In this document: piece by piece, positions 5,068 through 14,406 of the stretch
Position numbering within the stretch: the first letter of the stretch is position 1
Layout: each line of letters opens with the position of its first letter
Assembly: GCF_019218285.1 (NCBI RefSeq)
Contig: NZ_JAHUZG010000001.1
Span: 310,001 to 374,000 of the forward strand
Length of the DNA stretch: 64,000 nucleotides
Direction of reading: 5' to 3'
DNA from: Antarctobacter sediminis
GTDB taxonomy: Bacteria; Pseudomonadota; Alphaproteobacteria; Rhodobacterales; Rhodobacteraceae
Notes under the pieces: generated by a model
The model's input: only the letters and a program-made list of their open reading frames with translations
Database searches by the model: none
Told to the model about the DNA's origin: nothing
Translations under genes and position numbers: made by a program

Positions 5068-5152
5068 AAAAAAAAAGGCCGAGCACAAAGCTCGGCCGAA
5101 GTCCAACAGGGAGGTATGAAGATGAACCGCGAATGAGCGTTTCATCGTTCAT
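5068..5152 (-). ncRNA. Candidate small RNA with CCUCCC motif and intrinsic terminator
   Basis: On the minus strand a promoter-like pair (TTGATC at 5181-5186, 16-base spacer, CATATT at 5159-5164) is followed about 85 bases later by a textbook terminator: GGCCGAGC-TTTGT-GCTCGGCC (5077-5097) and nine Ts (5068-5076). The RNA would expose CUUCAUACCUCCCUGUUGG, a CU-rich anti-Shine-Dalgarno stretch typical of alphaproteobacterial trans-acting sRNAs. Alternatives are that this is only the 3' UTR end of the lysR gene that stops at 5269, or that the GGGAGG on the other strand serves a six-codon ORF (5122). Confidence 0.45.
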
Positions 5153-10806: not shown

Positions 10807-11619
10807 ATGGCGGTAGGGGTTTTCGACAGCGGGCTTGGCGGGCTGACGGTTCTGGACGCGGTGTCGCGTCGGCTGCCCGAGGTGCCATTCGTCTACTTTG
10901 GCGACAACAAGCATGCGCCCTACGGTGTGCGTGACGCGGATGATGTCTATAACCTGACCTGCGCGGCGACCGAACGGCTGTGGGACGCGGGCTGTGACCT
11001 TGTGATCCTTGCCTGCAATACCGCCTCGGCGGCGGCACTGCGGCGGATGCAGGAAAGCTGGATCCCGCGGGACAAACGGGTGCTCGGCGTGTTCGTGCCG
11101 CTGATTGAGGCACTGACCGAACGCCAATGGGGCGACAATAGCCCGCCGCGCGAAGTGGCTGTGGAACATGTTGCCCTTTTTGCCACCCCCGCCACGGTCC
11201 GCAGCCGCGCCTTTCAGCGTGAACTGGCCTTTCGCGCCATCGGCGTCGATGTCGAGGCGCAGGCCTGCGGCGGTCTGGTCGATGCGATCGAGGAAGGCGA
11301 CATGATCCTTGCAGAGGCGCTGGTGCGGAGCCATGTGGATGCGCTGAAACGCAAAATGCCCACCCCGGAGGCGGCAATCCTTGGCTGCACTCATTACCCG
11401 CTGATGCAGGACATCTTTCAAGAGGCGCTGGGGCCAGAGGTGAAGGTCTATTCGCAGGCCAACCTTGTGGCCGAATCTCTGGCGGACTACCTCGGTCGGC
11501 ATCCGGACATGATGGGCGCGGGGACAGAGGGCGGCTTTTTGACCACCGGTAACCCGGCCAAGGTCTCGCAGAATGCGACGCAATTCCTGCGTCGGAAAAT
11601 CACTTTCGACCCCGCCTGA
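10807..11619 (+). CDS. murI: Glutamate racemase
   Basis: A 270-residue MurI that makes D-glutamate for peptidoglycan. The family signature is intact: FDSGLGG with Asp7, the two catalytic cysteines Cys70 (ACNTASAA) and Cys194 (LGCTHYPL), and GDNKHAPYG. The C-terminal ~35 residues after [17 protein letters not shown] run slightly longer than in short family members. It follows the acyltransferase by 34 bases. Confidence 0.96.
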
Positions 11620-12392: not shown

Positions 12393-13136
12393 CTAGCGCC
12401 CTCCGCCGGGACGTTCCCCGATGTCGCCGGACCACCATGCCCGCTTGATCCCCTGATAGACGACGATTTCCTGTCCGGGACGATAGGGTTCCAGCTGATG
12501 TTCCTTGTAGGCGAGGCTTTCTCCTTGGCGTCCGCTGGCCTCTTTCCACGTCAGGCGATAACGGTACTTGTTGTTGACGCGATAGTTGGTGGCTTTCATG
12601 CCGGTCACATGAGCCGTTTCCCGCGCGCCGTAGCGGCGCGCTCGCACGGCGGCCACGGCCCAACGGCCCGGAATCCACATGGCCACCAGCGCGCCAAGAC
12701 CAAAGACCAGCGCGATCCAGCGGGTCACGATCGAGGTGGTCCGGTTTTCTCCGCGGTTGAGCTCGGTCCTTTCCGGATCGCTTTGGAGATACCAGATCGG
12801 CAGTCGTTCACCAATCTCATGACGATGGTAGAGCGAACTGCCGACCGAGCGGCTGACGACCACACGCTCGCCTTCGTGGGTTTCGAACCGTAGGTCAAAA
12901 TAATAGGTGACCTCACGATCCCCGTCGCTGTCTGTTGTGACCTCGCGCCGTTTGTCGACGATGTCGGCGGCGGTTTCGCGGCCTTCCTGATCGAACCGGT
13001 TTGCAAGGTTCAGCGTCGTGTGGCTGATCAGGGTCAGGACCAGCAGCAGCGCAATAAAGATCAGCGTGATCCAGCCCCCCATGCGCCAGAACAATCGGAA
13101 TATCGAAACAGGTTGGTCATCAGCAATACGGGCCAT
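12393..13136 (-). CDS. DUF3592-like membrane protein
   Basis: A 247-residue protein with two transmembrane segments (about residues 18-40 and 150-180) flanking a beta-rich domain containing YYFDLRFETHEGERV and the LPIWYLQSDPE stretch, which is the usual look of DUF3592 proteins. The C-terminal half repeats a related beta pattern (YRYRLTWKEASGRQGES). Function is unknown. The start at 13136 (MARIADDQ) avoids a longer Arg-rich N-terminus that would run through the argC leader on the other strand. It is divergent from the argC leader unit. Confidence 0.7.
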   Translation of the reverse strand: MARIADDQPVSIFRLFWRMGGWITLIFIALLLVLTLISHTTLNLANRFDQEGRETAADIVDKRREVTTDSDGDREVTYYFDLRFETHEGERVVVSRSVGSSLYHRHEIGERLPIWYLQSDPERTELNRGENRTTSIVTRWIALVFGLGALVAMWIPGRWAVAAVRARRYGARETAHVTGMKATNYRVNNKYRYRLTWKEASGRQGESLAYKEHQLEPYRPGQEIVVYQGIKRAWWSGDIGERPGGGR

Positions 13137-13194: not shown

Positions 13195-13223
13195 TTGATC
13201 GTGATCCGGTGGGGGTCTATAGC
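13195..13223 (+). promoter_or_regulatory. Promoter of the argC leader
   Basis: TTGATC (13195-13200), a 17-base spacer, and TATAGC (13218-13223). Transcription would begin near 13230, only about 15 bases before the leader ATG. Confidence 0.5.
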
Positions 13224-13245
13224 CAAAAAGCAAAGGAGCCATGTC

Positions 13246-13281
13246 ATGTCCGCGTTCAATACCCTGCGCCTGCGACGATGA
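13246..13281 (+). CDS. Arg-codon leader peptide of argC (MSAFNTLRLRR)
   Basis: An 11-codon ORF with AAGGAG (13233-13238) seven bases before its ATG. Its last five codons are CTG CGC CTG CGA CGA, so three of five encode arginine and two are CGA. It lies 97 bases before argC, an arginine-biosynthesis gene, directly after a promoter-like pair. That is the architecture of a ribosome-stalling attenuation leader sensing charged tRNA-Arg. An overlapping frame from ATG 13241 runs 46 codons into the argC start, but its spacing to the SD is only 2 bases. Confidence 0.5.
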   Translation: MSAFNTLRLRR

Positions 13282-13291
13282 TCTGCCCGCT

Positions 13292-13329
13292 GCCCGCCGA
13301 CCGGGCCGCGCCTTTCCCTTTGTCTTTCC
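13292..13329 (+). promoter_or_regulatory. Possible attenuator between leader and argC
   Basis: A 5-base-pair GC stem (GCCCG-CCGAC-CGGGC, 13292-13306) is followed by a G-poor pyrimidine tract, CCTTTCCCTTTGTCTTTCCC (about 13311-13330). This is weak for an intrinsic terminator but fits either a modest attenuator or a Rho-loading site that becomes exposed when the leader is fully translated. Confidence 0.3.
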
Positions 13330-13377
13330 CATTCGCGTTGCCGTGCCGTGCACGCATCATCCAGCAGGTGACTTGCC

Positions 13378-14406
13378 ATGACCCATTCCATCGCCATCAT
13401 CGGGGCTTCGGGCTATACCGGGGCCGAGTTGATCCGGCTTTTGGCCACCCATCCGTCATTTGAAATCAAGGCGCTGGCGGCCAATTCCAAAGCCGGGCAG
13501 AGCATGGCGCAGGTCTTTCCGCATCTGCGCCATCTTGATCTGCCGGATCTTGTGACTTGGGAGCAGATCGATTTTTCTGCAATCGACCTGTGTTTCTGCG
13601 CCCTGCCGCACAAGACCTCGCAGGAGGTGATCTCGCAACTGCCCAAGAGCGTGAAGATCGTCGATCTGTCGGCGGATTTCCGGCTGCGCGATCCGGCGGA
13701 TTACGAAAAATGGTATGGCAATGCCCACGCTGCCATAGAGACGCAGAAAGAGGCCGTTTACGGCCTGACCGAGTTTTACCGCGACGCCATCAAGGACGCG
13801 CGCCTTGTGGCCGGAACCGGCTGTAACGCGGCAACCGGGCAATACATCCTGCGGCCGCTGATTTCGGCCGGGGTGATCGACCTGGACGAGATCATTCTGG
13901 ATCTGCAATGCGGGGTCAGCGGGGCCGGGCGGTCGCTGAAGGAAAACCTGCTTCACGCGGAACTGAGCGAGGGCACCAATGCCTATGCCGTAGGCGGCAC
14001 CCACCGGCACCTTGGCGAATTCGATCAGGAGTTCAGTGCGCTTGCCGGTCGGCCGGTGCAGGTGCAGTTCACGCCGCACCTTGGGCCATTCAACCGGGGC
14101 ATCCTTGCGACCTCCTACCTGAAAGGCGATCCGCAGGCGATCTACGCGGCGCTTCAAGCGGCCTATGCGGATGAGCCATTCATCGAAGTGCTGCCCTTTG
14201 GTGAAACGCCCTCGACGCATCATGTGCGCGGGTCGAATTTCTGCCATATCGGCATGACCGGAGACCGGCGGCCCGGGCGTGCGATTGTGGTGGCGGCACT
14301 GGACAACCTGACCAAGGGCAGTTCGGGGCAGGCTTTGCAGAATGCCAACCTGATGTTGGGTGCGGCGGAAACCGCCGGGTTGATGCTGGCACCCTGTTTC
14401 CCCTGA
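13378..14406 (+). CDS. argC: N-acetyl-gamma-glutamyl-phosphate reductase
   Basis: A 342-residue ArgC, which reduces N-acetylglutamyl phosphate to the semialdehyde in arginine synthesis. The N-terminal NADP-binding motif [14 protein letters not shown] and the catalytic Cys149 in [12 protein letters not shown] are clear, as are [18 protein letters not shown] and the C-terminal [11 protein letters not shown] segment. It is the long (type 1) form. No other arg genes are adjacent. Expression may be governed by the leader peptide described upstream. Confidence 0.96.

Follow-up and report, generated by a model that had tools for sequence, protein, structure and literature searches.

A candidate regulatory leader peptide ending in tandem CGA codons before argC of Antarctobacter sediminis and its relatives

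The trp, his, leu and ilv attenuators have their own promoter, a good Shine-Dalgarno (SD) sequence, a very short open reading frame (ORF) with tandem codons for the amino acid of the next gene, and a hairpin just past the stop codon. The same features are shared by a short leader located before argC in Antarctobacter sediminis, within a stretch of 64,000 nucleotides that was analysed as a whole (positions 310,001 to 374,000 of contig NZ_JAHUZG010000001.1; hereafter, the window). No canonical terminator/antiterminator pair was found here, unlike in the trp, his and ilv attenuators, and the control codons lie directly at the stop codon. The same genome contains, upstream of ilvB (contig C1, locus L269), a seemingly textbook branched-chain attenuator, with the leader MSTLVVIVGTRRMGR and its stop codon, a later strong GC hairpin and a TTTTTT run, as judged by eye; thus, this lineage appears to use a strong terminator there, and not before argC.

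T-box RNAs bind tRNA directly, whereas the argC leader has no Rfam match at the gathering score: a scan of the whole window at that score matched nothing in the leader and, elsewhere, no more than one tRNA and the RNA SorX (singlet oxygen resistance RNA X; 5071-5141, minus strand, 51.2 bits). The likeness lies in the control of arginine genes at the RNA level, which is mentioned for T-boxes in a comparative study of actinobacteria; the same study reports no conserved RNA regulatory structure before the arginine operons of that group (PMC1262725).

A likeness of working, rather than of family membership, is found with orf34 (speFL), the Salmonella speF leader. Pausing there at two consecutive Arg codons is proposed to permit a hairpin downstream of the stop codon, with a stable mRNA at low arginine, while pausing at the stop prevents it; the two Arg codons, the hairpin 3' of the stop and arginine as the signal are all shared with the argC leader (PMC6386406). 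However, speFL is a 34-aa peptide with a DUF2618 domain, it precedes an ornithine decarboxylase gene and it belongs to another group of bacteria, whereas the argC leader codes for 11 aa and, as such a peptide before argC, falls outside the speFL/orf34 family. Moreover, frequent Arg codons are reported to have replaced the rare ones of orf34 equally well, with arginine control kept, a result that offers no ground for CGA in particular and so counts against the reading proposed below; in the argC leaders, instead, CGA itself is kept, next to the stop (PMC6386406). Among Alphaproteobacteria, a comparable case is the DUF1127 upstream ORF of Sinorhizobium meliloti, whose translation is reported to control premature termination in the absence of an intrinsic terminator, with Rho suggested. 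The proposal there is that C-rich codons at the start of the ORF signal ribosome availability, and not that codons at its end signal an amino acid (PMC12218461).

Among the abstracts and titles that full-text searches of open-licence papers listed, none deals with an arginine-codon leader before argC, or with murI codons used in this way. In an initial annotation of the window, made from its letters alone, such control was regarded as not known to be described for arginine genes in this group.

The leader of the window and its recurrence before argC

The argC gene (13378-14406, plus strand) codes for a 342-aa N-acetyl-gamma-glutamyl-phosphate reductase (TIGR01850, 375 bits, over the cut-off, with the Pfam semialdehyde dehydrogenase domains) and is preceded by an SD-like CAGGTGA at 13365-13371. 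The glutamate racemase gene murI (270 aa; 10807-11619, plus strand) lies 1.8 kb upstream, separated by a DUF3592 protein gene on the opposite strand (12396-13136) and by another ORF. Direct reading of the sequence between 13195 and argC retrieved, each at its place, all the elements that the initial annotation had named. A -35-like TTGATC (13195-13200) is followed, after 17 bases, by a -10-like TATAGC (13218-13223), with the leader ATG 22 nt further on; an AAGGAG SD sequence (13233-13238) stands 7 nt 5' of the ATG, and the plus-strand ORF MSAFNTLRLRR, 11 codons and a stop, occupies 13246-13281. Its 3' end reads CGC CTG CGA CGA TGA, with the CGA pair at 13273-13278 abutting the TGA. The promoter pair matches the consensus at 8/12 positions, below the threshold of a simple promoter scan, so that the case for a leader promoter rests on its recurrence; a transcript start is expected, by inference, near 13230.

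Recurrence was evaluated in two samples, one of 80 named argC loci nearest to the ArgC of the window, and one of 130 loci out of the best-scoring 150 places of the family, in which 350 of 394 genomes had argC (30 were given as loci and 100 were fetched). After removal of 8 duplicates, 202 distinct argC loci were available, and a stand-alone leader preceded argC in 17 of them (6/130 among the family loci). Together with the window and five loci from the pattern search described below, these make 23 leader loci, which were recognised by an in-frame CGACGA; its presence in 23/23 leaders is hence true by definition. The stop codon follows the pair directly in 22/23 leaders, a single CAG codon intervening in L009, and the ATG lies 18, 24 or 27 nt before the first CGA, although L013 offers a further candidate ATG at 30. 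L009 is titled Enemella evansiae, an actinobacterial name, yet it has Roseobacter-type argC, murI and leader, so that title and content seem discordant.

Leu precedes Arg-Arg in 21/23 leaders (five of these loci come from a pattern that favours Leu), and the residues ahead of Leu-Arg-Arg vary widely. The run of arginine codons that the initial annotation had pointed out, CGC CTG CGA CGA, recurs only in part: the last two Arg codons are constant, but an Arg two residues earlier is found in just 6/23 leaders. An SD-like site, which was required of each ATG taken, is present in all 23, and a TTG-N17-TA pair ending 18-22 nt upstream of the ATG in 21/23; the best promoter scores average 7.5/12, compared with 6.3 in shuffles (p = 3.8e-5). 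Frame, SD site and promoter position all suggest that this is a translated short ORF transcribed with the operon, as in known attenuators.

A search of 394 family genomes with the pattern SD-ATG-...-TKCGACGATRA, in which frame was not demanded, gave 61 rows, or 60 after removal of an overlapping duplicate, 15 in frame and 45 out of frame. Thirteen of the 15 in-frame matches precede argC (those in G364 and G202 do not), and none of the 22 out-of-frame matches that were fetched, of the 45, lies near argC. At the level of sequence, the in-frame enrichment before argC is a test of frame that is independent of how the sample was built; tandem codons for the end product are thus found before argC both in the 23 loci, which were chosen by them, and in these 13/15 matches. 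Comparison with relatives, which the initial annotation had asked for, indicates that the leader at 13246-13281 is genuine and better founded than the window sequence alone could show. At the level of sequence, the outcome contradicts the condition set for its refutation, a lack of conservation of the ORF or of its Arg codons: the leader loci share the ORF, the two CGA codons, the placing of the promoter pair and the hairpin.

In the stretches read before argG, argJ and carA of the same genome, no short ORF ending in CGA-CGA was seen. The possibility of a dispersed or repeated element was dropped: the 188-nt leader matched 10/198 genomes, its own included, and the other matches looked, by eye, like GC-rich chance matches inside unrelated genes. 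One of the matched loci, L095, contains CGACGATGA before a gene resembling a zinc-transport binding protein. At two places less than 150 nt from argC that belong neither to a leader nor to murI, a further CGACGA occurs (L027 at -47 and L184 at -14); both were left out of the counts.

Folding downstream of the CGA codons

The best local hairpin past the leader, at 13288-13310 on the plus strand, starts 15 nt past the first base of CGA-CGA and has a predicted energy of -13.4 kcal/mol, versus -7.2 in shuffles; it is followed by CCTTTCCCTTTGTCTTTCCC, in a T/C-rich and G-poor tract at 13311-13330. The GC stem and the pyrimidine-rich tract of the initial annotation are both recovered here, and both recur in the leader loci. 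The 176-nt region overall folds no better than shuffles (z -0.54), so that the folding signal is local. In 23/23 leader loci the hairpin is stabler than the mean of 12 shuffles per locus (mean -12.5 vs -7.6 kcal/mol, Wilcoxon p = 2.4e-7), with a median start at +15 and end at +37 from the first CGA. Among 18 leader loci, 36-nt windows starting at +6, +12 and +18 past the first CGA beat shuffles (z -1.35, -1.66 and -1.09; s.e. 0.21-0.31), and a second, shallower minimum follows at +48 and +54 (z -0.67 and -0.68); the bins at +42 and +48 have a pyrimidine content of 0.80-0.81 and a G content of 0.07-0.12. At least 10 pyrimidines occur in the 14 bases after the hairpin in 18/23 loci.

The window contains no canonical terminator, in accordance with the absence of a strong intrinsic terminator noted initially; a strict terminator shape is found in 5/18 leader loci, with 0.44 expected, and is absent in the other 13, and inspection of the folds of the 18 loci revealed no recurring, mutually exclusive antiterminator. 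Canonical terminators were also discarded for the loci in which murI carries the codons (see below), where they occur in 6/113, with 2.5 expected. Sequestration of the argC ribosome site, hinted at by the fold of the window, was likewise set aside, as masking the place of the ribosome disclosed no recurrent effect of ribosome position: the predicted shift in access to the site was 0.006 in 18 leader loci and 0.016 in 92 of the 95 murI loci with CGA-CGA, within about 1.5 standard errors.

In the murI loci with CGA, the murI stop codon sits in the loop of a weak hairpin (stem score 11.85, vs 10.97 after swapping downstream stretches between loci), which persists after excluding 19 loci with TTGC or TTGG at the stop (11.26 vs 10.61, n = 94); the test was negative in adjacent murI loci devoid of CGA and in separated murI. 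A looser test for any hairpin beyond the murI site gave a positive result for the 113 murI with CGA (p = 4e-8) and for the 20 separated murI as well (p = 0.002); the murI-type hairpin is hence only suggestive.

CGA usage and the murI tail as a second carrier

CGA accounts for 2.8% of Arg codons in argC and for 2.4% in murI outside its last 14 codons, and among the other tandem Arg pairs of argC and murI CGA-CGA occurs in 0/385. The 47 tRNA matches of the genome, read with ARAGORN, include tRNA-Arg with the anticodons CCG, TCT, CCT and ACG; none has TCG, and in the one on contig C4 that ARAGORN could not read the loop seems, by eye, to be without it. Thus, CGA must be read by tRNA-Arg(ACG), presumably as inosine opposite A. 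In the Salmonella his leader, CGU and CGC are reported to be decoded faster than CGA, and Arg-Arg pairs containing CGA strongly relieve attenuation (PMC4046918).

Outside the interval 13195-13377, the same codons are found in the C-terminus of the murI of relatives. In 154 loci, the majority of the relatives sampled, murI ends no more than 160 nt upstream of argC with no leader between, and its C-terminal ATQFLRR motif is mostly encoded with CGA CGA. Of the 149 readable tails, 113 have CGA as the first codon of the Arg-Arg pair, 95 have it as both codons, and 36 have a different first codon; the two sites are Arg in 133/149 and 146/149, and the share of CGA among the Arg codons is 85% at the first site and 69% at the second. 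Leu precedes the pair in 143/149, with a codon that varies among synonyms, and in most tails several residues still follow the pair. Seven tails without a recognisable site (five of them adjacent) were excluded from these counts, and the picking rule may misplace the site in odd tails, as it did in L033, where the CGA count is unaffected. At the other positions from -8 to the stop the commonest synonym accounts for 36-90%, background codon use having been computed for Arg codons only; the other consensus Arg position of the tail, -6, favours CGC.

Where murI is apart from argC, or a leader follows it, the first codon is CGA in 0/20 loci and in 0/4 examined later (0/24 overall), and in 12/24 the pair is Lys-Arg, Arg-His or Arg-Lys instead of Arg-Arg. 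The window belongs to this type, its distant murI having CGT CGG, and not CGA CGA, for the C-terminal Arg-Arg (11590-11595). In two loci a leader lies between a nearby murI and argC: L018, with a distance of 174 nt and CGG AAA in murI, and L207, with 155 nt and CGG CGC. In an ArgC tree built with FastTree the leader loci need three changes, and L179, which is of the murI-CGA type, falls among them. For the separation of murI from argC, six independent pairs were obtained on supported branches, of which on average 3.6 agree, 0 oppose and 2.4 do not differ (median p 0.125). The association between the murI codons and the neighbourhood of argC appears strong in codon terms and is never opposed; the independent separations are few, and on phylogeny alone it is non-significant.

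A proposed arginine sensor and its rivals

It is fairly likely that the ORF at 13246-13281 is a regulatory leader peptide of argC, in which a shortage of charged tRNA-Arg slows the ribosome at CGA-CGA, the ribosome thereby governing how the RNA just downstream folds; arginine would probably be sensed through the slow reading of the pair. The sequences show that the leader recurs, in frame and with its CGA codons, that the hairpin has a set position, and that the murI codons are linked to the argC neighbourhood; from this we infer the ribosome positions, the response to arginine with its sign, and an output that may be readthrough, mRNA stability or Rho. The initial annotation had proposed transcription attenuation by charged tRNA-Arg: ribosome-mediated control by that tRNA stands as the best reading, with transcription attenuation as one possible output; the window has no canonical terminator, and the folds of 18 leader loci revealed no recurring antiterminator.

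The leader would be transcribed from its own promoter and a ribosome would load at once; on reaching the two CGA codons at the leader end, the leading ribosome would be slowest when arginine is short, and its position would decide whether the hairpin 15 nt on can fold. Given the usual extent of a ribosome footprint, a ribosome whose A site contains the first CGA would reach to near +12, about the hairpin start, and leave the hairpin free; at the leader stop it would reach to near +18 and overlap the first hairpin bases. The folded hairpin would favour argC expression under arginine shortage, like the hairpin downstream of the stop in Salmonella speF; higher argC expression under shortage would fit, being the sign to be expected for a gene of arginine synthesis. 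Where murI directly precedes argC, its last codons seem to do the job of the leader, and a ribosome at the murI stop would wholly cover the weaker hairpin found there. A more tentative proposal, to which we give slightly less than even credence, is that of a movable codon-level sensor: two inosine-read CGA codons and a hairpin would be kept before argC by whichever translated frame is at hand, leader or murI tail, so that regulation of the next gene would fix certain codons of an essential cell-wall enzyme, and two of its residues as well. Set beside the described systems, the argC leader would be a form of leader-peptide control whose codon-specific element is unusual and can reside in more than one frame. 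If true, this would explain how arginine synthesis may be controlled in these marine bacteria and would provide a natural test of why one synonymous codon serves as a sensor; it would also be a case of a leader function moving between an ORF of its own and the end of an unrelated gene.

The same elements might instead act in termination or insulation, with two slow codons delaying the leading ribosome before the hairpin, so that the transcript ends and argC stays low or constant whatever the arginine. The hairpin begins just past the edge of the stalled ribosome, the T/C-rich tract follows in 18/23, the strict terminator shape occurs in 5/18 leader loci against 0.44 expected, and a promoter-like site for argC is present downstream in some loci of the murI type; still, a stand-alone leader with its own promoter would be purposeless as an insulator, 13/18 of the tested leader loci are without the strict shape and Arg codons ahead of an Arg gene would be a coincidence, and we consider this explanation unlikely. 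TnaC, SpeFL and the fungal arginine attenuator peptide are nascent-peptide sensors, and the Leu-Arg-Arg end could similarly arrest the ribosome from within the exit tunnel, the ligand being free arginine or some other metabolite. Conservation of the codon CGA goes beyond what residues alone would explain, the residues ahead of Leu vary freely and most murI tails continue several residues past the pair, which make such a sensor improbable even with Leu before Arg-Arg in 21/23 leaders (five loci from the Leu-favouring pattern) and in 143/149 adjacent murI tails.

CGACGA could also be a motif that a protein or a small RNA recognises in DNA or RNA, and it would then lie in a reading frame only incidentally: the six bases are the most constant part, and both carriers, leader and murI tail, retain them. 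We regard this as very improbable, since all 13 pattern matches before argC are in frame although frame was not demanded, frame is held across three leader lengths with the stop directly after in 22/23, and murI uses several synonymous codons for the Leu before the pair. One genome alone would offer just an 11-codon ORF, and a functionless short ORF of no special character would then be a fair description; with the 13/15 in-frame matches before argC, the promoter position and the hairpin contradicting it, chance can hardly be credited. The favoured reading remains that of a ribosome slowed at CGA-CGA by shortage of charged tRNA-Arg.

Several results speak against it: the small number of independent separations of murI from argC, the 36/149 adjacent murI with another first codon, the unchanged predicted access to the argC ribosome site, the strict terminator shape in just 5/18 leader loci and not in the window, the weak murI stop-codon hairpin and the orf34 result. 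A further one is that in 28/113 murI-CGA loci a promoter-like TTG-N16-18-TA site occurs downstream of the murI codons (5.1 expected). As these sites lie between the codons and argC, an argC mRNA starting there would lack the CGA codons, which in these loci can act only on readthrough from murI, or otherwise do something else. In murI-argC spacers such as those of L129, L133, L139 and L177 a recurrent TTGCGG/TTGCGC-N17-TACATC, a likely argC promoter, stands right after the murI stop, and its -35 overlaps the 3' arm of the murI stop-codon hairpin. Past the murI stop a further recurrent motif, CTTAGGTCAA, possibly an operator, is present in L037, L044-L046, L053, L054 and L056 (Ruegeria), and also in L125 and L157.
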